A stretch of DNA of 64,000 nucleotides from Candidatus Thiodiazotropha endolucinida (GTDB taxonomy: Bacteria > Pseudomonadota > Gammaproteobacteria > Chromatiales > Chromatiaceae): the NCBI RefSeq assembly GCF_001715975.1, contig NZ_MARB01000018.1:1-64000 (forward strand). The letters run 5' to 3'. A program made the translations under genes and the position numbers. The notes under the pieces are model-generated. The model saw only the letters and a list, made by a program, of their open reading frames with translations, searched no databases and was not told the DNA's origin. Positions 6,196 to 49,217 of this stretch are shown here, in pieces. Position 1 is the stretch's first letter. Each line of letters opens with the position of its first letter.

Positions 6196-6852
6196 TCAGA
6201 ACTGATCCTTATGCGTGACGGCCCATACAGCGGCTTCAACGCGGGTTTTTAATCCAAGTTTCTTCAGCAGATGTTTGACGTGGACCTTGACAGTTGATTC
6301 TGCAATCGAAAGTGTACGTGCAATTACTTTGTTGCTTTCACCCTCGCTGATATGAATTAGAATTTCACATTCCCTATCTGTGAGATCAAGAGTGGAAGGT
6401 GCAGTGTCGCGTGCCCCTTCCGCCTGCATGGCGCGGGCCAGACATTCGGCAACATTGGGCGATAAAGCAACTCGACCTTCAGCGACCTCATGTAGTTTTT
6501 GCATGAGTTGTGTTGGTTTCATGTCTTTCAGCAAATAACCGTCAGCACCGGATCGAAGTGCTGCGACAACATCTTCTTCTGCGTTGGATACGGTGAGCAT
6601 AACGACACGTGAGGTAGATGCACTACTCTTCAGTTGAGTCAAAACTTCCAGTCCATTCATCTCCGGCATATTCAGGTCGAGCAGCACAAGATCGGGTTTC
6701 AGCTTGTTTACCATGGCGATGCCTTCTGGACCGCTATCGGCCTCGCCGATGATTTCGATATCCGGACTCAGATCGGCCAGTTGTTGCAGTCCTTTTCTTA
6801 ACAGTGGATGATCATCAATAACGACAATACGTTGGGCAACCGTTGCGTTCAT
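6196..6852 (-). CDS. narL: Nitrate/nitrite response regulator NarL
   Basis: 218 aa. The receiver domain (residues 8-125) has DD at 13-14, phospho-acceptor Asp59 in LLDLNMPEMNG, Thr87 and Lys109. A LuxR-type helix-turn-helix (about 153-210) includes LTDRECEIL and SNKVIARTLSIAESTVKVH. Its start codon overlaps the narX stop as ATGA, so the two are translationally coupled. The kinase partner and the divergent narK/narG operon point to nitrate-responsive activation of that operon. Confidence 0.95.
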   Translation of the reverse strand: MNATVAQRIVVIDDHPLLRKGLQQLADLSPDIEIIGEADSGPEGIAMVNKLKPDLVLLDLNMPEMNGLEVLTQLKSSASTSRVVMLTVSNAEEDVVAALRSGADGYLLKDMKPTQLMQKLHEVAEGRVALSPNVAECLARAMQAEGARDTAPSTLDLTDRECEILIHISEGESNKVIARTLSIAESTVKVHVKHLLKKLGLKTRVEAAVWAVTHKDQF

Positions 6853-8747: not shown

Positions 8748-8935
8748 CTCGTAAATAGAGAGAACCGGAGAAAATATACAGGTTATTTAGGATTAATCCC
8801 TTTTCCCCATTGGGATCGGAATCCATACAACTGACTTTAGCATGCTACATTTGAATACCATGCTATTCAAAGTGTTATAGGTGGTATGGCCTCTACTACC
8901 AAAGTATTAGCTGTACTTTTTTCAGCGGAAACCAC

Positions 8936-8949
8936 TTGATCTAAGTCAA
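8936..8949 (+). promoter_or_regulatory. FNR-type box upstream of narK
   Basis: TTGATCTAAGTCAA matches the FNR/Dnr consensus TTGAT-N4-ATCAA with one mismatch. Its centre lies about 70 bp before the narK start. TACCAAA, TACTACC and TACCATG words in the 80 bp before it resemble NarL heptamers but are too loose to call individually. This suggests activation under low oxygen plus nitrate. Confidence 0.75.
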
Positions 8950-9012
8950 TAACCTCCAAGCTCAAAAGAATCTATTTTCACCCTCCACGGTAATTTTGGA
9001 GGAGGGTGAATA

Positions 9013-23366: not shown

Positions 23367-23419
23367 ATTCACCTCTTTGCTTATCACAGTTGATTACATC
23401 TCTATAAGCCTGCTGATTA

Positions 23420-23646
23420 GGGCCTGTTAACACTAATCCAATACACCCTGCTGGGGCTGTTTTTGTGTCCAGCAAGGCAGAATGAGCGAGGTGTAGTTAT
23501 GCTACATGAGCGAATGATAACGCCGCTGGGCGCAAAAACAGCCCCAGCCCTTCGGGTTGCGCCCCGAAGGAAGTGCCCTTGGGGTGCGCCTTGATTGGCG
23601 CTTTTTCAGGCACAACAGGGCGTATTGGATTAGTGTTAACAGGCCC
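23420..23646. mobile_element. 227-bp MITE-like element, copy 1
   Basis: Terminal inverted repeats of about 30 bp begin GGGCCTGTTAACACTAATCC and end with its complement. The element is flanked by TA on both sides (23418-23419 and 23647-23648). The interior has GC-rich palindromes (GGGGCTGTTTTTG / CAAAAACAGCCCC; CCTTCGGG). There is no reading frame for a transposase, so it is non-autonomous. TA target duplication is typical of IS630/Tc1-mariner transposases. The second full copy (33157-33383) is exactly the same length. Confidence 0.85.
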
Positions 23647-23821
23647 TAGGGAAGCATCCCTGCCCTGGAACGGTTAAATGGGAGCGGAATCGAGTTGAGT
23701 GACTGTCTGTCTGGTCGTTATCGGGATGGTGTCTATTTGAGTAATGGGGTAAAAGCCCGATTCTGGTCAACCGTAGTGAAAGCGTGTTATTTAGGCCGGT
23801 TATTTGTCTACCATTCAATCT

Positions 23822-32989: not shown

Positions 32990-33419
32990 AAGGGGTAAGA
33001 GAGGAATGGCACTTACTTAAGCCAAAAACCACCGTCATCCCGGCGCAGGCCGGGATCCAGAATGCTTGATCGTGACGATATTCCTGGATTCCGTTACCTG
33101 ATCAAGTCCGGTACAGGCTCAGCGCCGGAATGACGAAAATCCTGATATTCGTCTTAGGGCCTGTTAACACTAATCCAATACGCCCTGCTGGGGCTGTTTT
33201 TGTGCCCAGCAAGGCAGAATGAGCGTAATGTAGTTATTCTACATGAGCGAATGATAACGCCGCTGGGGGCGAAAACAGCCCCAGCCCTTCGGGTTGCGCC
33301 CCGAAGGAAGTGCCCTTGGGGTGCGCCTTGATTGGCGCTTTTTCAGACACAACAGGGCGCATTGGATTAGTGTTAACAGGCCCTAAGTAAGCGCCATTCG
33401 GGTCAGAGAGCATTTGTCT
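32990..33419. repeat. Palindromic repeat element, long copy interrupted by a MITE
   Basis: The outer arms are GAATGGCACTTACTTAAG (33004-33021) and, once the insertion is removed, CTTAAGTAAGCGCCATTC. Inside are CCGTCATCCCGGCGCAGGCCGGGATCCAG and its counterpart TCCGGTACAGGCTCAGCGCCGGAATGACG. The 227-bp MITE lies at the TA inside the right arm. The related copy at 22625-22757 has the empty site. Confidence 0.8.
33157..33383. mobile_element. 227-bp MITE-like element, copy 2
   Basis: Same length and the same terminal inverted repeats as copy 1, with scattered substitutions and TA on both sides (33155-33156 and 33384-33385). Removing the element and one TA restores CTTAAGTAAG, matching CTTGAGTAAT in the uninterrupted repeat at 22718-22727. 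This documents a precise insertion with TA duplication. Confidence 0.88.
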
Positions 33420-33436
33420 CAAATATAAGATGCAGT

Positions 33437-33742
33437 TTATTGATCATTGTCACTGGAACACTGCCAGCCCCTTGATTCTAATGTCTTAATGAACTCAATC
33501 GCTTTTCGCTCACAATAATCATCGTCATTTTCAGCATTCCATAATGTACGCGGCATTACGTTTTCATCCGGCTTGGTATAATAGACTTTGCAGGGTAATG
33601 TGGCGGGTTCATTTGGATGGAAGATAAGGACATTTCTTGTCAGTTCCGCATAGTGACAAGTCCATGAATTCGCAAAGCTATCGGATGGCGCTATAAGAAT
33701 AGTCAGTAGGAGCACCCATGAGTTGTAAGCCAGATACTTCAT
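33437..33742 (-). CDS. Small secreted protein, paralogue A
   Basis: 101 aa from the ATG at 33742, preceded by GGAGCG; an upstream ATG adds 9 aa. A Sec signal ends SFA-NSW. The mature part has four cysteines (WTCHY, LPCKV, YCERK, WQCSS), so two disulfides are likely. Nearly identical in its mature part to the protein at 34918-35223. No family recognised. Lies next to a repeat element. Confidence 0.75.
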   Translation of the reverse strand: MKYLAYNSWVLLLTILIAPSDSFANSWTCHYAELTRNVLIFHPNEPATLPCKVYYTKPDENVMPRTLWNAENDDDYCERKAIEFIKTLESRGWQCSSDNDQ

Positions 33743-33908
33743 GGCATCGCTCCAGTTACATGCAAACATAGATCATCTTCCGGGGTTATTAGTGCCTGAG
33801 CCTATTTGTGAATTCCAGTGAAGGTTGTCGTCCAACGGAGCGACAGAATTTTGCTGGTCTCTTCGATTATTCATTTTTTATACGGGCAGCATTGCCGTGG
33901 TAGAAAAA

Positions 33909-34917: not shown

Positions 34918-35223
34918 TTATTGATCATTGTCACTGGAGCACTGCCAGCCCCTCGCTTCTAATGTCTTAATGAAATCAATAGCTTTACGCTCACAATATG
35001 TATCATCATTTTCAGCATTCCATAATGTACGCGGCATTACGTTTTCGTCTGGCTTTGTATAATAGACTTTGCAGGGCAATCTGGCGGGTTCATTTGGATA
35101 GAAGATAACCACGTTTCTTGTTAATTCCGCATAGTGACAGGTCCATGAACTCGCAAAGCTCTCAGATGGCATCACAAGAAGAGTGAGAAGAAGCACACAT
35201 GATTTGTAAATCAGATTATTCAT
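34918..35223 (-). CDS. Small secreted protein, paralogue B
   Basis: 101 aa. Signal peptide ends SFA-SSW. The mature chain differs from the 33437-33742 product at only about a dozen positions and keeps all four Cys (WTCHY, LPCKV, YCERK, WQCSS). The two genes are 1.2 kb apart in the same orientation with an SDR gene between them, so they arose by duplication. Function unknown. Confidence 0.75.
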   Translation of the reverse strand: MNNLIYKSCVLLLTLLVMPSESFASSWTCHYAELTRNVVIFYPNEPARLPCKVYYTKPDENVMPRTLWNAENDDTYCERKAIDFIKTLEARGWQCSSDNDQ

Positions 35224-35508: not shown

Positions 35509-36477
35509 TTAAATATTGCTCAGGACGTAATTCGCAGCATCAAGCCTTTTGTTCATTTGGTTGATTAACTTTTTATATAGTTCCATATTCATTGCGATGT
35601 ATGAAGACATACCATTCATGCTAAGGTTTTGATACGCAGTGTAGTTATTGCTATATAACATCAATTGATCTTTTGCGCTCTCAGCTTCGAATTCAGCCAT
35701 TCGGCGTTTCTCTTCTCGCCCCACAGGAAGAGTCATAAATATTCTTTCATCATAGCGCCACGGATTTTCTAAAACTTCATACTCCCACATCGTTAGGTAG
35801 TCTGTGTCCCTATACACCTTTACAATAGCATCGGAGTACTTAGGGTTGGCCACAACAAACAACGAAAGCTCTTCCATAGACTGAATATCTTTATTCGTAA
35901 TCCGACGGGCCTCTGACAATATAAAGTTGGTAATTTCAGTTAGCCGCTGTATTGGATTTGGAGCACTCGCAAAGTCCAATTCTTCCTGACTAGCCTCCCT
36001 CACCATACCATTTATTTCAGTGAATGCTGGAGAACGATTTATATCTTCTGGAGTACAATACAAACTATTCTCTACTATATGTACTCCGGCATATTCGAAG
36101 GATTCCGCTACAAGCCTAGAGCAGAACTGCTTGTTTTCTGGTTTAGATTGATTTCCAGTTTTAGTCCTGATTGCATCTCTAACAGAATATGCTTTTCCAA
36201 CTTGTGATCGAGCGTACATAACTGCGCTCTTAACACATTTTTTATCGTTGGGGCGGAGAATTTTTACATTGTTCGGCTTCTCAAAAATAAGCCGTTGAAT
36301 ATTGGCAGAATGAACCCCTTGTGAATCCGAGTGTATGTAGCTTCCGTGCCCGATACAAAGAATTGCATGGGAGTACTCGCTATTTGTAAAGTTTCGAACT
36401 GCCTTGCTTACGAGCCCACGTTGAGCGGTCAAGAAAACATCACCTTCCTTTAATTTTTGAATGTCTAAGATTAACAT
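35509..36477 (-). CDS. YiiX/NlpC-P60-like permuted papain-fold hydrolase
   Basis: 322 aa from the ATG at 36477, which follows AAGG; a GTG would add 11 aa. The N-terminal half matches the YiiX (DUF830) type: GDVFLTAQRG, catalytic His37 in SEYSHAIL, and Cys119 in KQFCSRLVAESF, in the permuted His-before-Cys order. Members hydrolyse amide or thioester bonds. The C-terminal 150 aa are helical and unrecognised. Last gene of the six-gene operon, 60 bp after the HD-Hsp90 gene. AT-rich like the rest. It could be the effector or a modifier (inference). Confidence 0.75.
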   Translation of the reverse strand: MLILDIQKLKEGDVFLTAQRGLVSKAVRNFTNSEYSHAILCIGHGSYIHSDSQGVHSANIQRLIFEKPNNVKILRPNDKKCVKSAVMYARSQVGKAYSVRDAIRTKTGNQSKPENKQFCSRLVAESFEYAGVHIVENSLYCTPEDINRSPAFTEINGMVREASQEELDFASAPNPIQRLTEITNFILSEARRITNKDIQSMEELSLFVVANPKYSDAIVKVYRDTDYLTMWEYEVLENPWRYDERIFMTLPVGREEKRRMAEFEAESAKDQLMLYSNNYTAYQNLSMNGMSSYIAMNMELYKKLINQMNKRLDAANYVLSNI

Positions 36478-36537
36478 GAAACAAACCTTAATGATGGAGT
36501 ATGGACACACATGTAATCGTTACTAATTTTTGACAAC

Positions 36538-39003
36538 TTAACCTCTATTTTTGTTAGCCTGCTCCAAGCTTTCACGAAAAATTTCGTTTTTTGTGTTTTC
36601 TTTCAGTATCTCAACAAGCTTATGCCAATATTTGTCTGATACGGAGTTTGAAATACTTGAGCATATTTCGAGTGCCAACATCCCTTCAAAATTTTGCCAT
36701 TTTTCACTCATGATGATTTGAGTTCTGGCAGAATTAAGATCCAAATCCATATTTCCACAAATATCAACCACTATAACCATAGGGAATGGCCAATCTAGCT
36801 TTACTTGGTTTTTTTGCATTCTCCAAAATTCAGGAAACAACGATGTAGGAACTTCAATTCCGTGCAAGGATAGTCGCGATTTAGATTTGCAGAGATCGTT
36901 TTGTGAATCAGATTGGTCAATCGACCCATTTTCGTCAATCGTAATTGATGTCGTAGATTCACATATTTCATTACTGCTCATCCTCAAGCTCTTTTCCAAA
37001 GGAAAACTTTCGCCCTCTATATCTATAGATCGAGAAGTCATTTCAATGCTGGAAACTGGAACATTATTGCTCTCCAGAATTGCAACAACGACTGAACCTT
37101 TGAACCCTTTTGTTTCATCTTCAAGTTCGATCTTAAACTCCCTAATATTGACATGCTTATCCCATGAGTAATTTTTTAGAGAGTCCGCTTTTATTTCTTC
37201 AAATGAGTTCTCATCTCTTACTTTCTCATGAGATTTTGTTTCGACTCTGATTTTGAAGGGTGGATTTGGAATGACATTCTCAACGGATTGAATGAAGTCG
37301 TCTTCACTAAGATCATCCCATGGATTGACATTTTTTCTAAGAAACAATTTTGTTGATGTTCCGGGTTTTTTTCTTTCGCCAGGCTTTACCCAAAATATGC
37401 TGTCCTGCCCTTCGATAGTCAAATTGATAGGTTCGCTAGAATCATGTGGACCATAAACTCTTCTCGTATCTACTACCAACGTATCCGCGACCATGAAGCA
37501 AGATAAAATCCCTATTCCGAACCTTGAAGTTGGATTAAATTCAGCCTTTGATTGGGATTTTAAATCAAAGAAATCTGGTGACTTATAAAACGATGATCCT
37601 ACCTTGGAATAGTATGTATCAATGATGTACTGATCCATACCAGTACCATTATCTATGATCTCAAGTACGTCGCCCTCATTTTCGGTAGAATATTTTATAT
37701 GTACCTCCGGTTCGTATAAATTTCCCCAGCTTTTTTCCATAGCGCTTCGTAGTAAGCAGGCATCAATAGAATTTTGCAACAACTCACGAAGAGCCACCTC
37801 TGGATCACCATACAATTTTGTACCCATCAGCAGGTCTATAACCTGATTTTTACTTAAGTTGAACTGTGCCTTCTGATAAAGGTATAGCGGCTCTCCACTA
37901 ATGGTCTTCTTTGTTTCTATTTTTGACCTATCAACATTGAAGGGTATTTCTATCAAGTGTTCTTTCCCTTGGGCTCTATCATAATCATTAATTGATGAAA
38001 TAATATTGTTACAAGCACTTAGTTCGGCATCAATAACATCACAAAAGTCATGGATAGATGCTTCGATTGCAGGATGTTCACATTTAGCATGAAACTGAAT
38101 TTTTTCCTTGCTGATAGACCATGATTCGATGGCTCTATGCTTATTCCATTCCTTTATTGATATCGGATGCCGTACAAAAAGATGTGAGAACAGTACAGAT
38201 GGCGTTCTCTTCGCGTCAAAATCGAGAATATCAGCGAGTCTTAAGATTACAGCTACCAACTGAAAGTTCGCATGAATGCCGTCAGCACAAAGATAATTCC
38301 GATCTAATTGCAAGAGAGAAAGAGCATCATCATTATGACTAGAACAAATTTCGGCAAATTCGACTGTTAAATCTACATCTCGGTATTTGATTTTCCCTAG
38401 CCAATCACTCTCTATGATATCGCGAGCACGACTGGCATGAGTAACTCGAATGTAATCAGAGACGATGTAGTATTTTAATAAACCGGCATCGCTATTTTTT
38501 CCTTGGGAAATATATGATTCCAGTTGCGCATTCAGATCAGGTTTTGATAAATAGAATCTGCAAAATTTGTTGTATTCGATTTCGTCCTCGGCAGATAGAG
38601 ATGGAGATGTATCCCAGACCTTCTTCCATGCACAGACGTCCTTTTCATCAGCGGCCATTCCAATGTCATGAAAAAATGCGCTTAGCACCAACAACATTAG
38701 CTCTGGAATTGAAAGCTCTTCGATCTTTTTAGGAGAAAGCAGTTTCTCCATCAACATCAAAACACGGAACAGATGATCGCCGTCGTGGAGAGTAAATTCT
38801 CCCATATGCATAAGAATTGTCTTAGTATTTTGATACGCAAAAAACGTAGCATCATCCACGAGAGATAGAACATGGTTTCCAGCCGGGTCACTATCACATT
38901 TATTTTTCAGAACACGGTAAATAGAACTCTTAGGCAACCTATCTTGTGTTTCCGCTTTCCAATCATCATAGTTCATAACAGAATCTTCATATGCTTCTTT
39001 CAT
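36538..39003 (-). CDS. HD-domain plus Hsp90-like GHKL ATPase fusion protein
   Basis: 821 aa. The N-terminal half has an HD-type pattern: LHDGDHLFRV (72-81), FFHDIGM (110-116) and RLADILDFD (255-263). This suggests a metal-dependent phosphohydrolase or nucleotide-binding fold. The middle has an HtpG-like ATPase: RELLQNSIDA (406-415), IIDNGTGMD (449-457) and FGIGILSCFM (495-504). The C-terminal 300 aa look like the Hsp90 middle domain. Much longer than HtpG (about 630) and without its usual C-terminal dimer domain. Overlaps the SMC gene by 4 bp (ATGA). Likely a sensor or switch in the operon (inference). Confidence 0.8.
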   Translation of the reverse strand: MKEAYEDSVMNYDDWKAETQDRLPKSSIYRVLKNKCDSDPAGNHVLSLVDDATFFAYQNTKTILMHMGEFTLHDGDHLFRVLMLMEKLLSPKKIEELSIPELMLLVLSAFFHDIGMAADEKDVCAWKKVWDTSPSLSAEDEIEYNKFCRFYLSKPDLNAQLESYISQGKNSDAGLLKYYIVSDYIRVTHASRARDIIESDWLGKIKYRDVDLTVEFAEICSSHNDDALSLLQLDRNYLCADGIHANFQLVAVILRLADILDFDAKRTPSVLFSHLFVRHPISIKEWNKHRAIESWSISKEKIQFHAKCEHPAIEASIHDFCDVIDAELSACNNIISSINDYDRAQGKEHLIEIPFNVDRSKIETKKTISGEPLYLYQKAQFNLSKNQVIDLLMGTKLYGDPEVALRELLQNSIDACLLRSAMEKSWGNLYEPEVHIKYSTENEGDVLEIIDNGTGMDQYIIDTYYSKVGSSFYKSPDFFDLKSQSKAEFNPTSRFGIGILSCFMVADTLVVDTRRVYGPHDSSEPINLTIEGQDSIFWVKPGERKKPGTSTKLFLRKNVNPWDDLSEDDFIQSVENVIPNPPFKIRVETKSHEKVRDENSFEEIKADSLKNYSWDKHVNIREFKIELEDETKGFKGSVVVAILESNNVPVSSIEMTSRSIDIEGESFPLEKSLRMSSNEICESTTSITIDENGSIDQSDSQNDLCKSKSRLSLHGIEVPTSLFPEFWRMQKNQVKLDWPFPMVIVVDICGNMDLDLNSARTQIIMSEKWQNFEGMLALEICSSISNSVSDKYWHKLVEILKENTKNEIFRESLEQANKNRG

Positions 39004-41108
39004 TTACTGGCAACAATATGTTGAATCGCGGATTCTAAGCCGTCAATTTCTACTTTTTCACCCATATCTACGGTATAGAAGCTGTACTTTGGGCCACTAT
39101 TTGGGTTCCAATCTTCAAACTGAATAACCTTCATTTTCGACCCATTTGGAGGTAGTAGAAAATCAAGAAGTCGATTTGTTAAGTCCTCGTGATGACTTGT
39201 CACAATCACCTGTCGTTTTGAGTCCTCATCATCAGTATATGCAAGTTTTCGTAGTAAAATAGCTGCAGGTATTAACTGGTTCATATCAAGAGAAGTTGTG
39301 AAGTCATCAAAGCCAATAACTCTATGACCGAGCTTATTTGAAAGCGCCAAATTCAGGTTAATGGTCCAACATATCGCTAACTGTGATTTTTGCCCGGTCG
39401 ACAAATCATCGAACTTAATATTAGACTTCGTCTTGAAACCCCATGAAGGTTTCTTCTGTGTCCCGAAATTCTTTATTTCTATAGGTAAAAAATCTTTTGG
39501 GAAATGAAAGTTAGCCAATAAAGAATTCATATTTTCAATAAGCAGCTTCAATTCGTTTTTAGGAATTTCTCCTATTAATGAAAGCAGCTGACTTCTTGCT
39601 CCAGCCTCCTGCTTGCAAATTGCTGTAGCTCCCTGAATAATTGCTTCAGCTGCATCTATATTCTCAGAGTTAAGCATCTGGGATTCGTCATTCATTTTTT
39701 CGAGTTCAAGCTGCGCCCAATTTTCAAAAATTGTCCCCAGATTGTTAAGCAAAGAGGCCTCATCAATAGTTGAGGAGCTGCTTTGTTTAGGATGAACTAT
39801 ATTACTTAAGAAACCTACCAATTCCCCCACTGAAAACTCGTTTTTACTTAAAAGGGGTTCTAATTCACTTGAGTGCCTATCAATTTCCAAGGCTACAGTT
39901 TGCGCACGCTTCAAATAATTGATTTTAGAAGCTAGTTCCTGACCTCTATTTTCTATAACCTTTATTTGCTCAGATAGCTCACGAAATCTCTTTTCTGAGA
40001 AGTCGCGAAACGTACTAATATTTTTTCCTAGCTTACCTTTTAATTCTATCAAAGTAGCTTCGTCGGGATGTTTTTCCCATGCGCGCAACCAGATATCAAT
40101 ATTGTCTTTAAACGCATTAAGCCAATTTTTTAGAGATGCCCCTTCTCCTGAAGTATCCTCTAATTTACCTGATAAATTGTGATATTCACTTCTTAGATTT
40201 TCTTGCTCTAATTCCAGTTTACCAATCGCTTCAGAATAAACATGCCCTTTAGTCGTAATATAGAGGTAATTTGAAAGGTCCACTGAAGCGCCAGGATCTG
40301 ACCGGCTTATTTTAAGCATCTCTGGCAATTGATTCACAGATGAAAGAAAACCTTTATCGATCGAAATGGAAACATCTTCTGAGTTTGAAGAGCGATACTC
40401 CTTCAGGTTTTCACCAATATTTCTAAGCTGTTGAGGTAGCTTTGCCCCTACTGGTTCAGACAGATTGCTAATCTCGGTAACCGCCTTTGAGAGATTTCTA
40501 ATTTGCGATTCCCATTTGCTCTGTAAGTTGCCGTTTTTGAGTGTTAAAGTGCTATCTTTTAGCATCTTCTTGATACGGGTTTCATTTGGGAGTTGATCGA
40601 CCAAAACATTAACTTGGTTGGCTAAGCGCTTTCTCTCTTCCCCGTAATTTTTACTATATTTTAATTGTTGAATTTTACGCTGCCAGATTTCTAACTGAGA
40701 CTGTATTTTCTTGAGTTCCTGCCTGATCTCGTCCGCTTGATTGTTTTCCGGTTCTAGAAGCTGAATTACATCGCTGCAAGCTAGTTCTTTAATATTTTCT
40801 TGGTAAAAAAATGATGATACGGATTCGATAGATTTGTGATCTATGCTTCCCTTTCCCTGTAACTTGTATTGTTTATCATTAATACAAACCCCCCCGTCCG
40901 TCTCATCTAAAGTAAGGTAATTTCCCGCACTTTCTTCAGTGTGGTTTAAAGACCAGTCTAAAGCTTCGAGCAGAGAAGTTTTACCAACACCATTTTTTCC
41001 TGTGATTAAAATAAGGTCTGCATCTAAATCAAATTCATGAATTTTTCGAAAACCTTTGAAATTTTCAAGCTTAATTGTTTTTATAAATTCAGAAGTATCC
41101 GACATCAT
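39000..41108 (-). CDS. SMC/RecF/RecN-type ATPase
   Basis: 702 aa. Walker A GKNGVGKTS (37-45), a long coiled-coil centre (about 150-480), ABC signature DLSTGQKSQLA, Walker B VIGFDDF followed by TTSLD, and switch His in IVTSHHED. The coiled coil is short for a canonical SMC and there is no clear hinge. Resembles the DNA-end- or DNA-loop-sensing ATPases found in many defence systems. Starts with two Met after GAGGGGGTAA and overlaps both neighbours, so it is strictly co-translated. Confidence 0.85.
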   Translation of the reverse strand: MMSDTSEFIKTIKLENFKGFRKIHEFDLDADLILITGKNGVGKTSLLEALDWSLNHTEESAGNYLTLDETDGGVCINDKQYKLQGKGSIDHKSIESVSSFFYQENIKELACSDVIQLLEPENNQADEIRQELKKIQSQLEIWQRKIQQLKYSKNYGEERKRLANQVNVLVDQLPNETRIKKMLKDSTLTLKNGNLQSKWESQIRNLSKAVTEISNLSEPVGAKLPQQLRNIGENLKEYRSSNSEDVSISIDKGFLSSVNQLPEMLKISRSDPGASVDLSNYLYITTKGHVYSEAIGKLELEQENLRSEYHNLSGKLEDTSGEGASLKNWLNAFKDNIDIWLRAWEKHPDEATLIELKGKLGKNISTFRDFSEKRFRELSEQIKVIENRGQELASKINYLKRAQTVALEIDRHSSELEPLLSKNEFSVGELVGFLSNIVHPKQSSSSTIDEASLLNNLGTIFENWAQLELEKMNDESQMLNSENIDAAEAIIQGATAICKQEAGARSQLLSLIGEIPKNELKLLIENMNSLLANFHFPKDFLPIEIKNFGTQKKPSWGFKTKSNIKFDDLSTGQKSQLAICWTINLNLALSNKLGHRVIGFDDFTTSLDMNQLIPAAILLRKLAYTDDEDSKRQVIVTSHHEDLTNRLLDFLLPPNGSKMKVIQFEDWNPNSGPKYSFYTVDMGEKVEIDGLESAIQHIVASK

Positions 41109-41712
41109 TTACCCCCTCTAAAACTTGCTCCCCCAAAAGGCTGTTAATGTCACTAATAAGTTCAGATCGCCACGCGATTCCAAATTCATCTGATTTGTCG
41201 CTTTCTACAGATATCATAAGATTATCCGCATATCGGCTGAATAGCGTAGCATCTGCTCCTTTCGGTGGTTTAGCGCTATGGACAGCTTCCTTTAATAATC
41301 GGGTGAACTCCACTGAGGTTACTCTGCGCGGAGAATAGTCAACGCTCTTCAATGGACCAAGCCAGCGTTCCTTCGCTTCTTCTATATCCGTTTTTACACT
41401 CTGAACTATAAAGCGCCCTCTATGCCAGTCCTGATCACCTGTGAGATGGCTCCAAGATTCTGATGTTTCTTGCAACTCGATCAGAGCGACCAAAGGTGAA
41501 AATAATTGGTAGTCATGCAGTAGATCTACCAAACGATCCATCAACTTTGCCATAATTATTCTTATAGCTCCCCAGTCCCTTTCATCAGTCTCTGAATCTA
41601 CTGGTTTCCAAACAACCAAATTACAAGCCGTGTGGCAATGCACGGAAATTGGCACAATTAATTTGCTAGTTTCAGTTGGGACTGATAATTCGACATCCAA
41701 TAATTTGTTCAT
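41089..41712 (-). CDS. Unrecognised 207-aa protein of the defence-like operon
   Basis: 207 aa, no signal or membrane helix, mixed alpha/beta. No motif I can name. A His/Cys cluster VHCHTACNL lies near residue 25 and a charged, Trp-containing centre at 80-125. It overlaps the SMC gene by 20 bp and starts 1 bp after the SIR2 gene stop. Tight coupling suggests a stoichiometric partner of one of them (inference). Confidence 0.7.
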   Translation of the reverse strand: MNKLLDVELSVPTETSKLIVPISVHCHTACNLVVWKPVDSETDERDWGAIRIIMAKLMDRLVDLLHDYQLFSPLVALIELQETSESWSHLTGDQDWHRGRFIVQSVKTDIEEAKERWLGPLKSVDYSPRRVTSVEFTRLLKEAVHSAKPPKGADATLFSRYADNLMISVESDKSDEFGIAWRSELISDINSLLGEQVLEGVNDVGYF

Positions 41713-41713
41713 A

Positions 41714-43570
41714 TTAGTTGTCCTTTTCAGGCTTTAAATAAGGCCGCCGTTTTATGCTGGGCTGATTTGCATAGTAGTAATTTGTAGGGGAGTCGATCGC
41801 GTCCAGTATTGTATCAGCCACGCTTTCCATATTTCCTTCATAAGGAGTCTGATAAAATATGTGTTTCCACCCGAGAGTAACAATGGTCTTAGGCGTGATA
41901 GTTTTTTTGCATTTATTAATGGCTCTATCTCTTCTGAGATCCGGTCGAATATGTGCACCTGCCTGCCCCAAAGTGATAGTAAGATAGTTATTTCCGCTTG
42001 GAACGCCAACATTATTCCCACCCCTTGCAACTGCTGGATCAGCATTAAGATAAAGTACTTTGTTAGTAGAAGACCCTTTTTCAGTTGTTTTAAAAATAAG
42101 CGCTACCCCTTTACCATTAGTTACATCAATAGCATCTGCAAGAACACCCTTTAAAAGATACAAGAGCAGCAGAAGCTCTGACATCAGCGCCTTGTTTTCT
42201 TCTACTGGGTCATAAAGTCCGGTCTCTTTGGCATTCAATACTGAAAGACAACCAACTAGAGCGCTAAAATGCTTCCCATCAACAGCATCATTCCCACAGA
42301 TGGAAGTAAAAGAATTTAACCAGTCCGGGGCTTTAGTGAAATGTTTCTGATCATCACCTTCAGCTTTATCTATTGATGAAATAACTTGATGCATAATTGT
42401 GGATGCAAATGGCACTATAGCTGTAAAGCTGGCGTTTGTTGACAATTGGCTTAATCTAAGCGCTTTTAGAATCACAGATCTTATGACACGCTCATAAATA
42501 TCCTCCCAGAGGTCATTTGCTGAGAGATTATTGCCTGTCTCAGGGTGACGGATAATGAGTTGATCACCATCCTGAGGGTCTTGTTTATGATGAAGAGCGT
42601 ATGTTTTTACAATTTGTTGTTGGTGAAAACTAGGCTGAGACTCAAATATGGCTACTATTGGTGCTGCAGGCGTTTCCAGAACAGGCTTGAAGTTGTCTCC
42701 AAGTTCATCTGTATATTCGTCTAAAACGGTCTGTACTGTGTGATGAACCTGTGGCTCGTTGCTTCCAAAGCCGGTAAAAATAAGGGATTTACTACGCAGC
42801 CGATCGCGAAATATATCAGAAGCCCATTGCCGATTTCTCCACTTCTGTAGTTGGCGTTCGGTTAACAAAATAGATTCACATTTTTGGGGATCACTTCCAT
42901 CTCCTAGCTTTTCCGAACAACCATTTACCTTATAAACTCTCAGGCGATTAATGACTCCATTCTTGGCACCTTTTTTTCTATAATCATCTAAGCTTGAAAT
43001 CTTATCAAAATGTTCCCCACCAGATATTTCTTCATACGCTTTTTCAAAATTACAGTCATAGTTAGTTGTAAGAACTTCACTAAGCAACCCTTCTCGTGCA
43101 AGCTTTGCAATAGCGATGTGTGCTTTTGTTGGCTGCAGGTCTTTATATTTGGCAATCTGTAGTAATTTTACTAAATCTTGGTATGCATCATTACTTTCAC
43201 GAAACTCCCAAAGATAAAGTTCAGATAATTCCCCAAGTTTATAGTCTTTGGCAGCTTCCCTGACATCACAAAAGAAACATTTGGATTTGATTAAGTTATT
43301 TTCATCAACTAATGGATCTAGTGCTTTCAGCTCATCTACATAATCATTGTTACAGATTGAACCATGTAGGTTTTTATCATATCGGTTATAACGTTTACTT
43401 AGTAACTTACGTTTAAGCTTATCCACCATCCAGTCAACTGTATGAAATCTTTCGCCGCCATCAGAGTGTGTGCTTGATACTGATATACCTGCTCCAGCAA
43501 CAGGTACGCAGCACTTGTTTAATATTTTATCTACTACATATTCAAAAGCATCCATTAAACCTGCTTCCAT
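41714..43570 (-). CDS. SIR2-like domain protein, probable NAD-dependent effector
   Basis: 618 aa. N-terminal SIR2 landmarks: PVAGAGIS (23-30), TTNYD (168-172), then YKVNG (213-217) where SIR2 proteins usually have LHG, and FTGFGSNEPQ (265-274). The Asn that contacts NAD (TTNYD) is kept, but the catalytic-type His is Asn216. The C-terminal 330 aa are unrecognised and may be the sensor. SIR2 effectors of ThsA/DSR type deplete NAD on phage infection (family knowledge). Overlaps the 80-aa gene by 16 bp. The start may instead be Met6. Confidence 0.78.
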   Translation of the reverse strand: MEAGLMDAFEYVVDKILNKCCVPVAGAGISVSSTHSDGGERFHTVDWMVDKLKRKLLSKRYNRYDKNLHGSICNNDYVDELKALDPLVDENNLIKSKCFFCDVREAAKDYKLGELSELYLWEFRESNDAYQDLVKLLQIAKYKDLQPTKAHIAIAKLAREGLLSEVLTTNYDCNFEKAYEEISGGEHFDKISSLDDYRKKGAKNGVINRLRVYKVNGCSEKLGDGSDPQKCESILLTERQLQKWRNRQWASDIFRDRLRSKSLIFTGFGSNEPQVHHTVQTVLDEYTDELGDNFKPVLETPAAPIVAIFESQPSFHQQQIVKTYALHHKQDPQDGDQLIIRHPETGNNLSANDLWEDIYERVIRSVILKALRLSQLSTNASFTAIVPFASTIMHQVISSIDKAEGDDQKHFTKAPDWLNSFTSICGNDAVDGKHFSALVGCLSVLNAKETGLYDPVEENKALMSELLLLLYLLKGVLADAIDVTNGKGVALIFKTTEKGSSTNKVLYLNADPAVARGGNNVGVPSGNNYLTITLGQAGAHIRPDLRRDRAINKCKKTITPKTIVTLGWKHIFYQTPYEGNMESVADTILDAIDSPTNYYYANQPSIKRRPYLKPEKDN

Positions 43571-43797
43571 TCATTTGGGTCTTCAGGGATTCCTAGATCG
43601 GAAGTATCAACTAATTCTGATGTCTCAGGATGAAGGACCGAAAAAGTAGCATCATTTGCTAGGTCTTCGACTGCATGGACTATGCTGACATAGCTACCCA
43701 AATCTTCATCATCAAAAACTGGATGAAATCTCCCATCCAATGATTGGGCGATAAAGAAAATTCCTATTTTGGTTTTCCATTTTAGTAGCAGCTTCAT
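43555..43797 (-). CDS. Small acidic protein, first gene of the SIR2/SMC operon
   Basis: 80 aa. Pattern KTKIGIFFIAQSLDGRFHPVFDDEDLGSY..AVEDLANDATFSVLHPETSE...DLGIPEDPNEW. I recall similar short orphan proteins in proteobacteria but no assigned function. It overlaps the SIR2 gene by 16 bp. It could be a regulator or inhibitor of the operon's toxic component, or an unrelated hitchhiker (inference). Confidence 0.65.
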   Translation of the reverse strand: MKLLLKWKTKIGIFFIAQSLDGRFHPVFDDEDLGSYVSIVHAVEDLANDATFSVLHPETSELVDTSDLGIPEDPNEWKQV

Positions 43798-44143: not shown

Positions 44144-45301
44144 TCAGTCCCACTTCAATGCCCCACCCGTCTGATACTCTGTAACCCGCGTCTCAAAAAA
44201 GTTCTTCTCCTTCCGCAAATGCGCCTGCTCATCCAACCAGGGTAGGGTGGCCTCAGCCCCGGGAAATGGCTCATCAATCCCAAGCTGCCGGGCACGCCGA
44301 TTGGCGATAAACCGGAACTGCCCCACATGGTCCTCCTGGGAGTAACCGAGAATAGGATCACGCAGGATGTAACTCGCATAGCCGATCTCGGCCGCTTCCG
44401 ATTCGTCCCACATCTCGCGAAGTACCTGTTTGTCCAGGGTGATGTTCTCTTCCTGGATGATCTGCTTGACCACCCGGATACCAAATGAAGCGTGCAGCAC
44501 TTCGTCGCGCATGATGTATTGCAGCTGTTCGGCGGTGCCTTTCATCAGGCCGCGGCGCTGCAGGGCGAAGATGGGGCTGAAGCCGTTGTAGAACCAGCAG
44601 CCTTCGAAGATGGCGGCGAAGAAGATGTAGGCCATGACGAAGTTCTGTAGCTCGTCCGGGTCGCGCAGGTCGATGTCGGCGCGCAGGATGGAGGCGAGGC
44701 GGCGGTTGGTGATCTGGATCTTTTTGTTGATCTCCGGCACCACCCGGTAGCGGTTGTAGATCTCGCCCTGGTCGAGGCCGATGGTCTCGATACAGTGTTG
44801 GTAGGTCCAGGTGTGGAGCGACTCCTCGTAGACCTGGCGCGCCTGGTAGATCTGCAGTTCGGGTGCCGACATCTTCTCCATCACCGCCAGGCCGATATTG
44901 CGCATCGCCAGGATGTCGGAGGTGGTGAGGTAGGAGAGCACGTTCTCGTAGACGTGGCGCTCCTCCAGGGTCAGCTTGTGCTGGTAGTCGTGGACGTCCT
45001 GGGCCATGTTGATGTCCAGTGGGGTCCAGTGGTTCTTGTTGGCGTTGAGGAAGTACTCCCAGGCCCAGGGATACTTGAAGGGCGCCAGCTGGTTGATGTC
45101 GGTCATGCCGTTGATGACCCGCTTGTCGTCCGGGTTAACCGGTTCCATGGAGGCCATCGCCTCGGCCTGCTCTTCCGCCTGCATGGCGCGGGCCGCCTCT
45201 TCCACCACATGGGGATGGGCCGGTTGGGTCTCGGTGTTCGCAGGGGCCGGCGTCGATTCGATGGGCGCCGGCTTCGCGAGTGGATCGTCCCAGTTCAGCA
45301 T
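44144..45301 (-). CDS. nrdB: Class Ia ribonucleotide reductase beta subunit NrdB
   Basis: 385 aa from the ATG at 45301, which follows GAGGAATTGAAG; ATG and TTG codons further up add 7-11 aa. Generates the tyrosyl radical for NrdA. ESLHTWTYQH gives Glu, His and the radical Tyr in the class Ia spacing. FFAAIFEGCWFYNGF and MRDEVLHASFG supply the later Glu/Glu/His ligands. A Pro/Ala-rich N-terminal extension (about 50 aa) precedes the core. Separated from nrdA by an inserted ImmA-like gene. Confidence 0.94.
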   Translation of the reverse strand: MLNWDDPLAKPAPIESTPAPANTETQPAHPHVVEEAARAMQAEEQAEAMASMEPVNPDDKRVINGMTDINQLAPFKYPWAWEYFLNANKNHWTPLDINMAQDVHDYQHKLTLEERHVYENVLSYLTTSDILAMRNIGLAVMEKMSAPELQIYQARQVYEESLHTWTYQHCIETIGLDQGEIYNRYRVVPEINKKIQITNRRLASILRADIDLRDPDELQNFVMAYIFFAAIFEGCWFYNGFSPIFALQRRGLMKGTAEQLQYIMRDEVLHASFGIRVVKQIIQEENITLDKQVLREMWDESEAAEIGYASYILRDPILGYSQEDHVGQFRFIANRRARQLGIDEPFPGAEATLPWLDEQAHLRKEKNFFETRVTEYQTGGALKWD

Positions 45302-45339
45302 CTTCAATTCCTCATTAATCATTGTTTGTTTCAAGGAAG

Positions 45340-46026
45340 TTAGTACTTCACAAGTCCAAGTTCTTGTAATCGGATTGCCATTGATAGACCAGAAACTTTG
45401 AATTGCTCAGCAAGAGATTTGATATGCCTTCCTGCATAGGATGTAGCATTAGCGATGGCAAGCTCACATGCTAGCGAGTTAGTAGCGGCATCTAACAAAG
45501 AATAGTGATCATCAGGGCAAAGCCAGAATGCAACATTGTCATCAATAACAATTGGGTGTTTTGTTTGAAAAGTCTTCTCAAATTGTTCAATTACAAGTCT
45601 ACGAGGCATCAGAAAACAGGCAGAAAAATAGTCAGCTTGTTTTTCTTTCCAAGGTTTTTTGTATGTACTCGAAGAAAGACCGTCTATAGGTCTATCTCTA
45701 TGCATGATTTCATCTTCATGTAACGTCCAATGTGCAATCTCATGTCCGCCAGTGAAACGTTGAGTGTAAATTGGAAAACGAGTTGAAATAGCTATTTTTT
45801 TCGCATGTCTATCTATGAGGCCCGCTACATTTGAATTTCTTTGTGTATTAAGCAAAGGGAGTTCAGGCCAAGTTTGAAAGTCAATGCCAAGAACATGTGC
45901 AGCAACTTTTGGATCGACCATATACAGAGGGTGAACATTTTTTCCTGGCCAAAGGACATGTTTGTTATCCCAAATTTCAATTAGGATCTCTCTAGCTTGA
46001 ATTTCAATTCGATCTTTCCAGTTCAT
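45340..46026 (-). CDS. ImmA/IrrE-family metallopeptidase between nrdA and nrdB
   Basis: 228 aa. Zinc motif HEIAH (95-99) in FTGGHEIAHWTLHED, with KEKQADYFSACFLMPRRLV downstream as in COG2856 proteins, which cleave phage-type repressors or regulators. The gene is AT-rich in contrast with GC-rich nrdA and nrdB. Its last codons and the sequence just upstream share the 10-mer TACTTCACAA (45344-45353 and 46034-46043). No HTH partner is adjacent. It appears to be an intruder in the nrd operon. Confidence 0.85.
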   Translation of the reverse strand: MNWKDRIEIQAREILIEIWDNKHVLWPGKNVHPLYMVDPKVAAHVLGIDFQTWPELPLLNTQRNSNVAGLIDRHAKKIAISTRFPIYTQRFTGGHEIAHWTLHEDEIMHRDRPIDGLSSSTYKKPWKEKQADYFSACFLMPRRLVIEQFEKTFQTKHPIVIDDNVAFWLCPDDHYSLLDAATNSLACELAIANATSYAGRHIKSLAEQFKVSGLSMAIRLQELGLVKY

Positions 46027-46052: not shown

Positions 46053-48935
46053 TCACTGGCACGCCTCGCAGTCCGGATCGAGGATGGAGCAGGCCTGGGG
46101 CGCTTCGCCGCCGGCGCCGATCAAGTCGACACCACTACCGCTGTCCTCCTGCTTGATCGAGGTCTTCTCCGCACCGGTGGCGCCCATGGAGCGCAGGTAG
46201 TAGGTGGTCTTGAGGCCGCGCACCCAGGCCAGCTTGTAGAGGTTGTCCAGCTTCTTGCCGGAGGGCTCGGCCATGTAGAGGTTGAGGGATTGCCCCTGGT
46301 CGATCCATTTCTGGCGCCGGGAACCGGCCTCCACCAGCCAGCGGGCGTCGATTTCGAAGGCGGTCGCGTAGACCGCCTTGAGTTCCGCCGGAATACGGTC
46401 GATGGGCTGCAGGGAGCCGTCGTAGTATTTCAGGTCGTTGATCATCACCTCGTCCCACAGATCCAGCTTCTTCAGGTCGTGCACCATGTAGGGGTTGACC
46501 ACGGTGAACTCACCGGAGAGGTTCGATTTGACGAACAGGTTCTGGTAGGTCGGCTCGATGGACTGGCTGACGCCGCAGATGTTGGAGATGGTCGCGGTGG
46601 GGGCGATCGCCATGGTGTTGGAGTTGCGCATCCCCTGGATGCGGATCTTCTCCCGCAGGGTGTCCCAGTCGAGGCTCTGGCTCTCGTCCACCTGCAGGTA
46701 GTCGCCCCGTTCCGCCTTCAGCAGCTTGAGGGAGTCGATGGGCAGGACGCCCTGGCTCCACAGCGAGCCTTCGTAGGTGGAGTAGCGGCCGCGCTCGGCA
46801 GCCAGGTCGGAGGAGGCCTGGATGGCGTAGTAGCTTACCGCCTCCATGGAGCGGTCGGCGAACGTCAGGGCCTCTTCCGAGGTGTAGGCCAGACGCTGTT
46901 TGTAGAGGGCGTCCTGGAAGCCCATGATGCCGAGGCCCACCGGGCGGTGGCGCAGATTGGAGTTACGCGCTTGGGGCACGCTGTAGTAGTTGTAGTCGAT
47001 GACGTTGTCGAGCATGCGCATCGCGGTGCTCACCGTCTTCTCCAGCTTCTTCAGGTCGAGACCGTTCTCATCCACATGGGCGGTGAGATTGACCGAGCCC
47101 AGGTTGCAGACCGCGATCTCCTGGTCGTTGGTATGCAGGGTGATCTCGGTGCAGAGATTGGAGCTGTGCACCATGCCCATGTGCTGGTTGCTGTAACGCA
47201 GGTTGCAGGGATCCTTGAAGGTGATCCAGGGATGGCCGGTCTCGAACAGCAGGCCGAGCATCTTGCGCCACAGGTCCATCGCCTTGACGGTTTTGCTCAC
47301 ATCGAGCAGCCCCTTGGCCGCCTTCTCCTCATAGGCGAGATAGGCCTTTTCGAAGGCCTTGCCGGTGAGCTCGTGCAGATCCGGGGTGTCGTTGGGCGAG
47401 AAGAGGGTCCAGTCGGCCTCTTCGGCGACCCGCCGCATGAAGAGGTCGGGGATCCAGTTGGCGGTGTTCATGTCGTGGGTGCGGCGGCGTTCGTCACCGG
47501 TGTTCTTGCGCAGTTCCAGGAACTCCTCGATATCGATATGCCAGGTCTCCAGGTAGGCGCAGACGGCGCCTTTGCGCTTGCCGCCCTGGTTGACCGCCAC
47601 AGCGGTGTCGTTGGCCACCTTGAGGAAGGGCACCACGCCCTGGGACTTGCCGTTGGTCCCTTTGATGTGGGCGCCGAGGCCGCGCACCCGGGTCCAGTCG
47701 TTGCCCAGGCCGCCGGCGAACTTGGAGAGTAGGGCGTTGTCCTTGATGCTGCTGTAGATGCCGTCCAGGTCGTCGGGCACGGTGGTCAGATAGCAGCTGG
47801 AGAGCTGCGGGCGCAGGGTGCCTGAGTTGAACAGGGTCGGCGTGGAGCTCATGAAGTCGAAGGAGGAGAGCAGGTCATAGAACTCGATGGCCCGTGTCTC
47901 GCGGTCGATCTCGTTGATCGCCAGCCCCATGGCGACGCGCATGAAGAAGGCCTGGGGCAGCTCGAAGCGAATGCCGTCCTCGCTATGGATGAAATAGCGG
48001 TCGTAGAGGGTCTGCAATCCGAGATAGGTGAACTGCAGGTCCCGTTCGGGCTTGATGGAGGCGATCAGCCGGTCCAGGTCGTACTGGCCGAGACGGCCGT
48101 CGAGCAGTTCCAGCTCCTGGGCCTGCAGGATATAGCGTTTGAAATAGCTGCAGTAGCTGTCGGCCATCTCCGCCTGGGTGTTGACCGGGGTGTCGAGACC
48201 GAGAAAGCCGAGGGCCTCCCGGCGCAGGATATCGAGCAGCAGGCGGGCGGCGACCTGGGAGTAGTTGGGCTCCTGATCGATCAGGGTGCGGGCGCTCATC
48301 ACCAGGGTCTGGGAGACATCGCTCTCTTTCACCCCGTCGAACAGGTTGCGGCAGGCCTCCTGCAGGATACGGCCGGCATCCACCTCGTCCAGACCGTTGC
48401 AGGCCTCGTTGACCAGGGCCTGCATGCGTTCGATGTCGAGGGGGCGGCTGGAGCCGTCGGCCAGGGTGACATTGACGATATGCGCTTGAGGAATGCCTTC
48501 GACCTCGGCGCGCTTGGCCTCCTCTTCCAGGCGTTTTTGGGTCTGGCGTTCTCGATAGAGGACATAGGCGCGGGCGGCCTTGTGTTCGCCGGAGCGCATC
48601 AGCGACAGCTCCACCTGGTCCTGGATATCCTCGATGTGCACGGTGGCGTTGTCGGGCAGGCGGCGGGTCAGCGCGCCGACCACCTGGTCGGTGAGGGCCT
48701 GGACGGTATCGTGGACACGGCTGGAGGCGGCCGCACTGCCGCCCTCGACGGCGAGGAAGGCCTTGGTCATGGCAACGCTGATCTTGCTGGGGTCGAAGTG
48801 AGTAACCTTGCCGTTCCGGCGGATGACCTGGATGCCGCTGGTGGTGTTGGCGCGCGCGTGTGTTTGAGGCTCCTGCATCATGGTCGGCTGGGTGACTGAA
48901 ACGGAAGCGTCGCTATTGGCTGCTTGTGTGGCCAT
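46053..48935 (-). CDS. nrdA: Class Ia ribonucleotide reductase alpha subunit NrdA
   Basis: 960 aa from the ATG at 48935, right after AGGAGAAGAG; an upstream frame of 11 aa has no ribosome site. An N-terminal ATP-cone (about 35-130, IQVIRRNGKVTHFDPSKI) gives allosteric dATP control, and a second cone-like segment follows it. Catalytic landmarks are SGTLRPQLSSCYLT, and SSNLCTEITLHT with the radical Cys and Glu. A C-terminal tail CSILDPDCEACQ serves as the shuttle cysteines. Longer than E. coli NrdA (761) because of the N-terminal region. NrdR and DnaA boxes lie upstream. Confidence 0.95.
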   Translation of the reverse strand: MATQAANSDASVSVTQPTMMQEPQTHARANTTSGIQVIRRNGKVTHFDPSKISVAMTKAFLAVEGGSAAASSRVHDTVQALTDQVVGALTRRLPDNATVHIEDIQDQVELSLMRSGEHKAARAYVLYRERQTQKRLEEEAKRAEVEGIPQAHIVNVTLADGSSRPLDIERMQALVNEACNGLDEVDAGRILQEACRNLFDGVKESDVSQTLVMSARTLIDQEPNYSQVAARLLLDILRREALGFLGLDTPVNTQAEMADSYCSYFKRYILQAQELELLDGRLGQYDLDRLIASIKPERDLQFTYLGLQTLYDRYFIHSEDGIRFELPQAFFMRVAMGLAINEIDRETRAIEFYDLLSSFDFMSSTPTLFNSGTLRPQLSSCYLTTVPDDLDGIYSSIKDNALLSKFAGGLGNDWTRVRGLGAHIKGTNGKSQGVVPFLKVANDTAVAVNQGGKRKGAVCAYLETWHIDIEEFLELRKNTGDERRRTHDMNTANWIPDLFMRRVAEEADWTLFSPNDTPDLHELTGKAFEKAYLAYEEKAAKGLLDVSKTVKAMDLWRKMLGLLFETGHPWITFKDPCNLRYSNQHMGMVHSSNLCTEITLHTNDQEIAVCNLGSVNLTAHVDENGLDLKKLEKTVSTAMRMLDNVIDYNYYSVPQARNSNLRHRPVGLGIMGFQDALYKQRLAYTSEEALTFADRSMEAVSYYAIQASSDLAAERGRYSTYEGSLWSQGVLPIDSLKLLKAERGDYLQVDESQSLDWDTLREKIRIQGMRNSNTMAIAPTATISNICGVSQSIEPTYQNLFVKSNLSGEFTVVNPYMVHDLKKLDLWDEVMINDLKYYDGSLQPIDRIPAELKAVYATAFEIDARWLVEAGSRRQKWIDQGQSLNLYMAEPSGKKLDNLYKLAWVRGLKTTYYLRSMGATGAEKTSIKQEDSGSGVDLIGAGGEAPQACSILDPDCEACQ

Positions 48936-49217
48936 CTCTTCTCCTGAATGTGTTCGCATCGTAGCCATTACTGCGCCGGGTCTACGGATCTGACTGCCCT
49001 GGCTGTCGATTGTCTATAGGTGGTTAAACTATTGTCTTTGCCGTGCGGACAGGGTGGCCGGTTTGCGCGGGTCGTTGCATGCCCTGTCTGCGTCAGGCCT
49101 CTTGCTGTGGGGGCATCTAACCCCGAGGCCGGTTTTTCTCTCTATGGCCGATTATTTCTCCGGCCTTATCCTCTGGTCGCTGATGTGGAATCAAAAGCCA
49201 GATTATTAAAACAGTAA

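Follow-up and report, generated by a model that had tools for sequence, protein, structure and literature searches.

The first 64,000 nucleotides of contig NZ_MARB01000018.1 of Candidatus Thiodiazotropha endolucinida (assembly GCF_001715975.1; hereafter, the window) carry a block of six tightly packed open reading frames (ORFs), all on the minus strand between positions 35509 and 43797, in which neighbours overlap or lie no more than 27 bases apart (Table 1). The block encodes a protein of 80 amino acids (aa; S80), a SIR2 protein, a small protein of 207 aa (U207), an SMC-type ATPase, a fusion of an HD domain to an Hsp90-type ATPase (HD-Hsp90) and a predicted cysteine hydrolase (C92). Overlaps occur between S80 and SIR2 (16 bases), U207 and SMC (20 bases), and SMC and HD-Hsp90 (4 bases), with gaps of 1 base between SIR2 and U207 and 27 bases between HD-Hsp90 and C92. 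Pfam matches were obtained for C92 (Peptidase_C92, 4.2e-10), SMC (SMC_N, 7.7e-14), SIR2 (SIR2_2, 1.6e-15) and both parts of HD-Hsp90 (HD-CE, 2.2e-54; HATPase_c_3, 8.4e-8), while no family in Pfam, NCBIfam or PADLOC was matched by U207 or S80 at E 1, and relaxing the Pfam threshold to E 10 added none. A preliminary description of this DNA had delimited the same six genes, at coordinates that hold and with gaps put at 60 bases or less (the largest is 27), and had assigned the SIR2, SMC, HD plus GHKL/Hsp90 ATPase and C92/YiiX-like hydrolase domains that Pfam now confirms. Its statement that the combination is not known as a named system agrees with PADLOC 2023, in which no model set covers the block. 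The block is the lowest-GC stretch of the window, as that description had noted in calling it AT-rich, yet it lies partly within the GC range of the rest (37.5–42.9% per gene in the block; 41.7–64.1% per kilobase outside it).

Table 1. Features of the six-gene block (window positions)
Feature	Position	Strand	Description
S80, 80 aa	43555..43797	-	ORF overlapping SIR2 start; no family match
SIR2, 618 aa	41714..43570	-	Trio member 1; Pfam SIR2_2; Asn-type motif YKVNGC
Asn 216 codon of SIR2	42923..42925	-	Position of the SIR2 motif His; 6-protein alignment
U207, 207 aa	41089..41712	-	Trio member 2; small protein with DQxWHRGxF motif
SMC, 702 aa	39000..41108	-	Trio member 3; SMC/Rad50-type ABC ATPase (Pfam, PADLOC, motifs); without CxxC hook
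HD-Hsp90, 821 aa	36538..39003	-	Separate module; HD-CE fused to Hsp90-type ATPase (Pfam)
C92, 333 aa, GTG start	35509..36510	-	Separate module; YiiX-like papain-fold cysteine hydrolase (Pfam)

Three of the six genes recur together. Azospirillum lipoferum plasmid AZO_p2, the sole plasmid record matching the window SIR2 protein, has, in the same order, genes for SIR2, for a protein of 217 aa and for an AAA ATPase. Identities to the window proteins are 36% over 279 aa for SIR2 (E 1e-43), 25% over 96 aa for U207 (E 9e-6) and, for SMC, 31% across 167 aa at the C-terminal end (E 2e-24) and 26% across 163 aa at the N-terminal end (E 2e-10). A third trio was found in a genome of the same phylum as the window and another class (G382), where the gene for the small protein (L035 11937-12683) is an open frame overlapping the end of SIR2 by 4 bases. 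All three small proteins have the motif DQxWHRGxF in common. The window trio is the outlier: those of AZO_p2 and G382 have more in common with each other (33% over about 710 aa for SMC) than either has with it. Judged by these alignments, SIR2, the small protein and SMC are a conserved trio. The other genes of the block do not travel with it: C92 had no match in the AZO_p2 record or the G382 genome, HD-Hsp90 had no relative in either save a weak G382 match to the Hsp90 ATPase part, and S80 was not noted beside either trio. Compared with solved structures, the SMC protein matched ATPase heads. Two further observations concern the trio proteins. The small protein of G382 (L035 11937-12683) contains 9-base tandem repeats (AES units) just past the conserved motif, and the Walker B end reads DD in all three SMC proteins (window 39000-41108; L029 10408-12435; L035 9892-11943), DE being common at this position in ABC ATPases.

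Relatives of the trio were scarce in the genome draws searched, which overlap one another. The U207 search recovered only its own genome among 369 of the same class, as did a three-row SIR2 profile among 229 genomes. Of 398 genomes of the phylum, the SMC C-terminal profile matched two (its own and G382) and a SIR2 pair profile five (its own, G382 and three relatives with His in the motif considered below). In the G382 class the SMC profile matched 1 of 48 genomes (G382 itself), and in a third class it matched none of 385, with no more than three candidates scored in the genomes listed for these two classes. Against plasmids, the AZO_p2 SMC protein found AZO_p2 and one ATPase-head match, and the G382 protein found AZO_p2. 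No genome draw yielded a further trio beyond those of the window, AZO_p2 and G382. S80 had no plasmid match and, among 104 same-class genomes, was found only as its own copy. A viral origin was rejected, as four viral contig scans contained no relative of SIR2, HD-Hsp90 or SMC, and SMC had no relative in phage records.

Both of the other trios stand directly upstream of a type III-B clustered regularly interspaced short palindromic repeats (CRISPR) operon. On AZO_p2, 24 bases separate the end of the SMC gene from cmr1, which is followed by cas10, cmr3, cmr4, cmr5 and cmr6, and the other side of the trio is occupied by cas6, cas2, cas1 and CRISPR-type repeats. In G382, cmr1, cas10, cmr3, cmr4 and cmr6 come after the SMC gene, each identified by NCBIfam (cmr3 below the curated cut-off, with cmr5 not identified in the operon), and a CRISPR-type repeat family of 19 copies begins beyond SIR2. 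The two Cas10 proteins, 41% identical, have both retained an HD at the N-terminus together with a GGDD or GGDE motif. The window genome had no match to the Cmr2 or Cas1 models, Csm1 and other cas genes lying outside the search; these models matched in 4 and 9 of 14 control genomes, Cmr2 being not very sensitive. CRISPR linkage is thus a property of two of the three known trios, and the window trio is free-standing by the models used. CRISPR in the window itself was rejected, with no CRISPR-like family among the repeats found and no Rfam match. A Pfam scan of the trio proteins from the window, AZO_p2 and G382 (for G382, SIR2 and SMC) matched no CARF or SAVED domain.

In an alignment of six proteins, the SIR2 motif reads YK[VI]NGC (YKVNGC or YKINGC) in all three trio members and KIHGC in three looser relatives, also of this phylum. 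In the trio proteins GAGxS and TNYD are kept. The Asn of TNYD, to which we also ascribe a catalytic role, is intact, and the motif His is replaced by Asn in 3/3. From sirtuin and ThsA work we take this His (Asn 216 in the window protein) to be catalytic; if so, its replacement makes it doubtful that the trio SIR2 is a plain NADase effector acting by simple depletion of nicotinamide adenine dinucleotide (NAD), and ligand sensing or altered chemistry is possible. As an NAD-consuming enzyme, the SIR2 effector proposed in the preliminary description accordingly keeps its SIR2_2 domain and loses weight at the motif. Solved structures gave no match for the SIR2 profile or for one His-type relative, no solved SIR2 was aligned across the motif, and the window protein found only marginal sirtuin matches (best E 1.1); its PADLOC match to ThsA is weak (1.1e-5). 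Two of the loci with His-type relatives (L043, 3212-10925; L044, 4952-11387) have a different three-gene arrangement, seen in two genomes, in which SIR2 lies between a large protein upstream, whose start looks TIR-like by eye, and a protein of 890 aa downstream.

The gene order of effector, small protein and SMC, seen in all three trios, resembles that of Lamassu type II. A review describes Lamassu/ABC-3C systems as combining an SMC-like LmuB with effectors of various kinds, including SIR2 (PMC10586767), and DdmABC is described elsewhere as an effector, a small protein and an SMC protein (PMC12409362). LmuB was the best PADLOC model for the window (2.6e-18) and G382 (2e-18) SMC proteins and second after mad3 for AZO_p2, but as a sign of Lamassu membership this is weak evidence, because AAA_13 proteins beside HD-Hsp90 score equally. 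No LmuA model was among the PADLOC matches of the three SIR2 proteins, no LmuC model was matched, and the trio SMC proteins have no CxxC hook motif. A Priestia ABC-3C locus used as a yardstick resembles the trio SMC solely in the ATPase head, and hhalign found no match between the small trio protein and one Priestia middle component (MC1). U207 is a small gene in the expected place, but it was not recognised as a known middle component in PADLOC, NCBIfam or the Priestia comparison.

HD-Hsp90 has a distribution of its own. Its relatives, sought in genome contigs with back-translated peptides of the window protein, an approach biased toward close relatives, were found at 26 loci (53–87% identity) from several phyla, with record titles that include Gamma- and Alphaproteobacteria, Acidobacteriaceae, Flavobacterium, Bacteroides, Chlorobaculum, Paenibacillus, Desulfotomaculum and others. 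None of the 26 loci had a relative of SIR2, U207, SMC, S80 or C92, whether the queries were the window proteins or the AZO_p2, G382 and plasmid C92 versions (flanks >5 kb upstream in 18/26 and >1.5 kb downstream in 21/26). The gene neighbours differ from locus to locus. A PADLOC scan at 1e-15 of ten hand-picked neighbour proteins from nine loci matched seven (type III restriction enzyme, n = 2; BrxH; partial Ppl; PDC-S06, n = 3) and left three without a match, and of ten upstream-side neighbours examined with Pfam, several belong to kinds known from defence islands (PglZ, DNA methylase, DUF3732 with NA37, AAA_13) and others to housekeeping families. At three loci (L002, L003, L005; 3/26), the protein directly upstream belongs to one blast cluster, whose L002 member (6726-9011) is of the AAA_13/PDC-S06 type; AAA_13/PDC-S06 and HD-Hsp90 are a possible recurring pair. 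Proteins of this type were also observed beside HD-Hsp90 in L023 and L026, those of L003 and L005 being placed by the blast cluster only.

Across 24 long HD-Hsp90 sequences, including that of the window, residues H77, H112, D113 and D258, which we assign by eye to the HD metal site, and E407, N411, D414, D451, G453, G455, G496 and G498, likewise presumed to belong to the ATP site, are invariant (24/24), and because of this both sites are probably active. Solved structures matching the protein were, among the matches listed, Hsp90 ATPase domains. HD-Hsp90 was dropped as a plasmid gene, since none of the 54 plasmid records matching it covers 80% of its length and in many the match is confined to the Hsp90 part. 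Among the PADLOC 2023 system models, none covers HD-Hsp90. An excerpt of PMC13092281 presents a predicted system with a histidine kinase-like ATPase, without experimental test, that may overlap with it; the titles and abstract openings of the papers listed name neither an HD-Hsp90 system nor the SIR2-U207-SMC trio.

C92, by comparison, has matches in 101 plasmid records, and in 16 of these the match spans 80% or more of its length. In three contexts examined, its relatives adjoin AbiH in Providencia and an Eco57I-type methylase in Bradyrhizobium, and on an Ri plasmid the relative follows a RES protein and has an S8 peptidase in its vicinity. The SHA and CSRLVA motifs are kept in all three aligned C92 proteins, and the comparison with solved structures gave one marginal cysteine peptidase match.

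On balance, the block is probably an acquired defence island in which at least three modules lie side by side (the trio, HD-Hsp90 and C92), the trio being a rare Lamassu-like variant. The biochemical role and anti-phage function given below for each module are what we infer. SIR2, U207 and SMC would form one complex of the Lamassu/ABC-3C type: the SMC-like ATPase would sense a DNA state of infection, U207 would bridge, and the SIR2 protein, inactive until a rearrangement of the ATPase, would be the output or a switch that binds a ligand. At the head of the type III-B CRISPR operon, the AZO_p2 and G382 trios probably add a sensing or output arm to Cmr. HD-Hsp90 would be a self-contained single-gene defence whose ATP-driven, Hsp90-type clamp gates the HD phosphohydrolase, and C92 may be an independent cysteine hydrolase. 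Several points weigh against this picture. The near-touching or overlapping genes (SMC and HD-Hsp90 by 4 bases) allow one transcript and joint function in this strain; the known trios number only three; and the AZO_p2 and G382 cassettes may share one joined ancestor (their Cas10 proteins are 41% identical), so that they are not two proven independent events. The bias of the HD-Hsp90 search counts here as well, as do the housekeeping genes (YidC, MnmE, a hydrogenase) that also adjoin HD-Hsp90 and the unspecific LmuB match, AAA_13 proteins of L002 and L023 scoring 3.2e-17 and 2.2e-18.

The joint function just mentioned was the core of the preliminary description, which proposed one six-gene system where SMC senses, HD-Hsp90 switches and SIR2 and C92 act. 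Overlapping or near-touching genes on one strand with similarly low GC speak for such a system, but 0/26 HD-Hsp90 loci have any partner gene, neither AZO_p2 nor G382 has a match to the HD-Hsp90 fusion or to C92, and C92 occurs in unrelated contexts. In the loci and genomes searched, the six-gene set is not conserved together elsewhere, the very outcome that the description had named beforehand as speaking against itself. We therefore reject the single system on co-occurrence and regard it as improbable; HD-Hsp90 as a switch of the same system as SMC and SIR2 is left unsupported, and the defence character that had been suggested is upheld for the modules by their neighbourhoods.

Closer to the favoured island of separate modules is the possibility, which we rate as real though rather unlikely, that the trio is an ordinary Lamassu type II with a SIR2 effector, beside CRISPR operons twice by chance and with nothing new in its working. 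SIR2 is an effector type listed in PMC10586767, the gene order is that of DdmABC in PMC12409362, and PADLOC ranks LmuB first for the SMC proteins of the window and G382. Unrelated AAA_13 proteins score equally with that model, however, LmuA and LmuC models are unmatched, the small protein does not match the Priestia middle component, the SIR2 protein has Asn for His, and in both cmr loci the trio is placed directly at the operon head. A genome-maintenance or regulatory complex outside defence would suit an SMC/Rad50-type ATPase and a SIR2 protein that lacks the motif His in 3/3, but such a role is very improbable for genes so rare (SMC profile in 2/398 phylum genomes, one its own) and found inside CRISPR operons in two of three cases.

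A bolder extension of the modular island is offered tentatively and is itself unlikely: SIR2-U-SMC may be an exchangeable immune module whose SIR2, lacking standard NADase chemistry, binds an NAD-like or nucleotide signal, and which was wired to type III-B CRISPR in two lineages as an SMC-type DNA-sensing or output arm for Cmr, while in the window it stands free beside HD-Hsp90, itself an undescribed single-gene defence. Most of the novelty is in the trio (Asn-type SIR2 and cmr linkage), with HD-Hsp90 as a second candidate. Should the trio work with Cmr, type III CRISPR would acquire an arm of SMC type in addition to its cyclic-nucleotide effectors, and one module would be common to innate (Lamassu-like) and adaptive immunity. 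The exchange of His for Asn makes it testable whether defence SIR2 proteins can be sensors rather than NADases. HD-Hsp90, a single gene strongly conserved across phyla, is a candidate in its own right, and in it a clamp of chaperone type would control a nucleotide hydrolase.

Elsewhere in the window, an AT-rich ORF (39% GC; 45340-46026) encodes a 228-aa protein with a HEIAH motif, ImmA/IrrE-like by eye, and sits between apparent genes for the large (46053-48968) and small (44144-45334) subunits of ribonucleotide reductase. Two 239-base copies (23417-23655 and 33154-33392), 95% alike and each with inverted GTTAACAGGCCCTA ends, resemble a small mobile element of the non-coding kind. Adjoining the island, two near-duplicate small proteins with signal-like starts (33437-33769 and 34918-35223; 300 bases 87% alike) flank a short-chain dehydrogenase-like gene.

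Set beside known systems, the trio shares with Lamassu type II (LmuA-LmuC-LmuB; DdmABC) the succession of effector, small protein and SMC-like ATPase, SIR2 being a listed effector type in the papers cited above, and departs from it in having no LmuA or LmuC match, no CxxC hook, an Asn-type SIR2 and, in 2/3 cases, cmr linkage. With SIR2 NADase effectors such as ThsA, the trio SIR2 has in common the predicted SIR2_2 fold, GAGxS, TNYD and, for the window protein, a weak ThsA match; unlike them, it has Asn at the motif His (3/3). As with the CARF/SAVED effector modules of type III CRISPR operons, the trio genes of AZO_p2 and G382 directly accompany cmr and cas10, but the trio proteins, as scanned, have no CARF/SAVED match, and the window genome has no Cmr2 or Cas1 match by the models used. 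HD-Hsp90, finally, combines the domains of the HD-CE and Hsp90/HtpG families, with the key residues of both kept, and differs from either family in fusing the two in one stand-alone gene of 810–820 aa.

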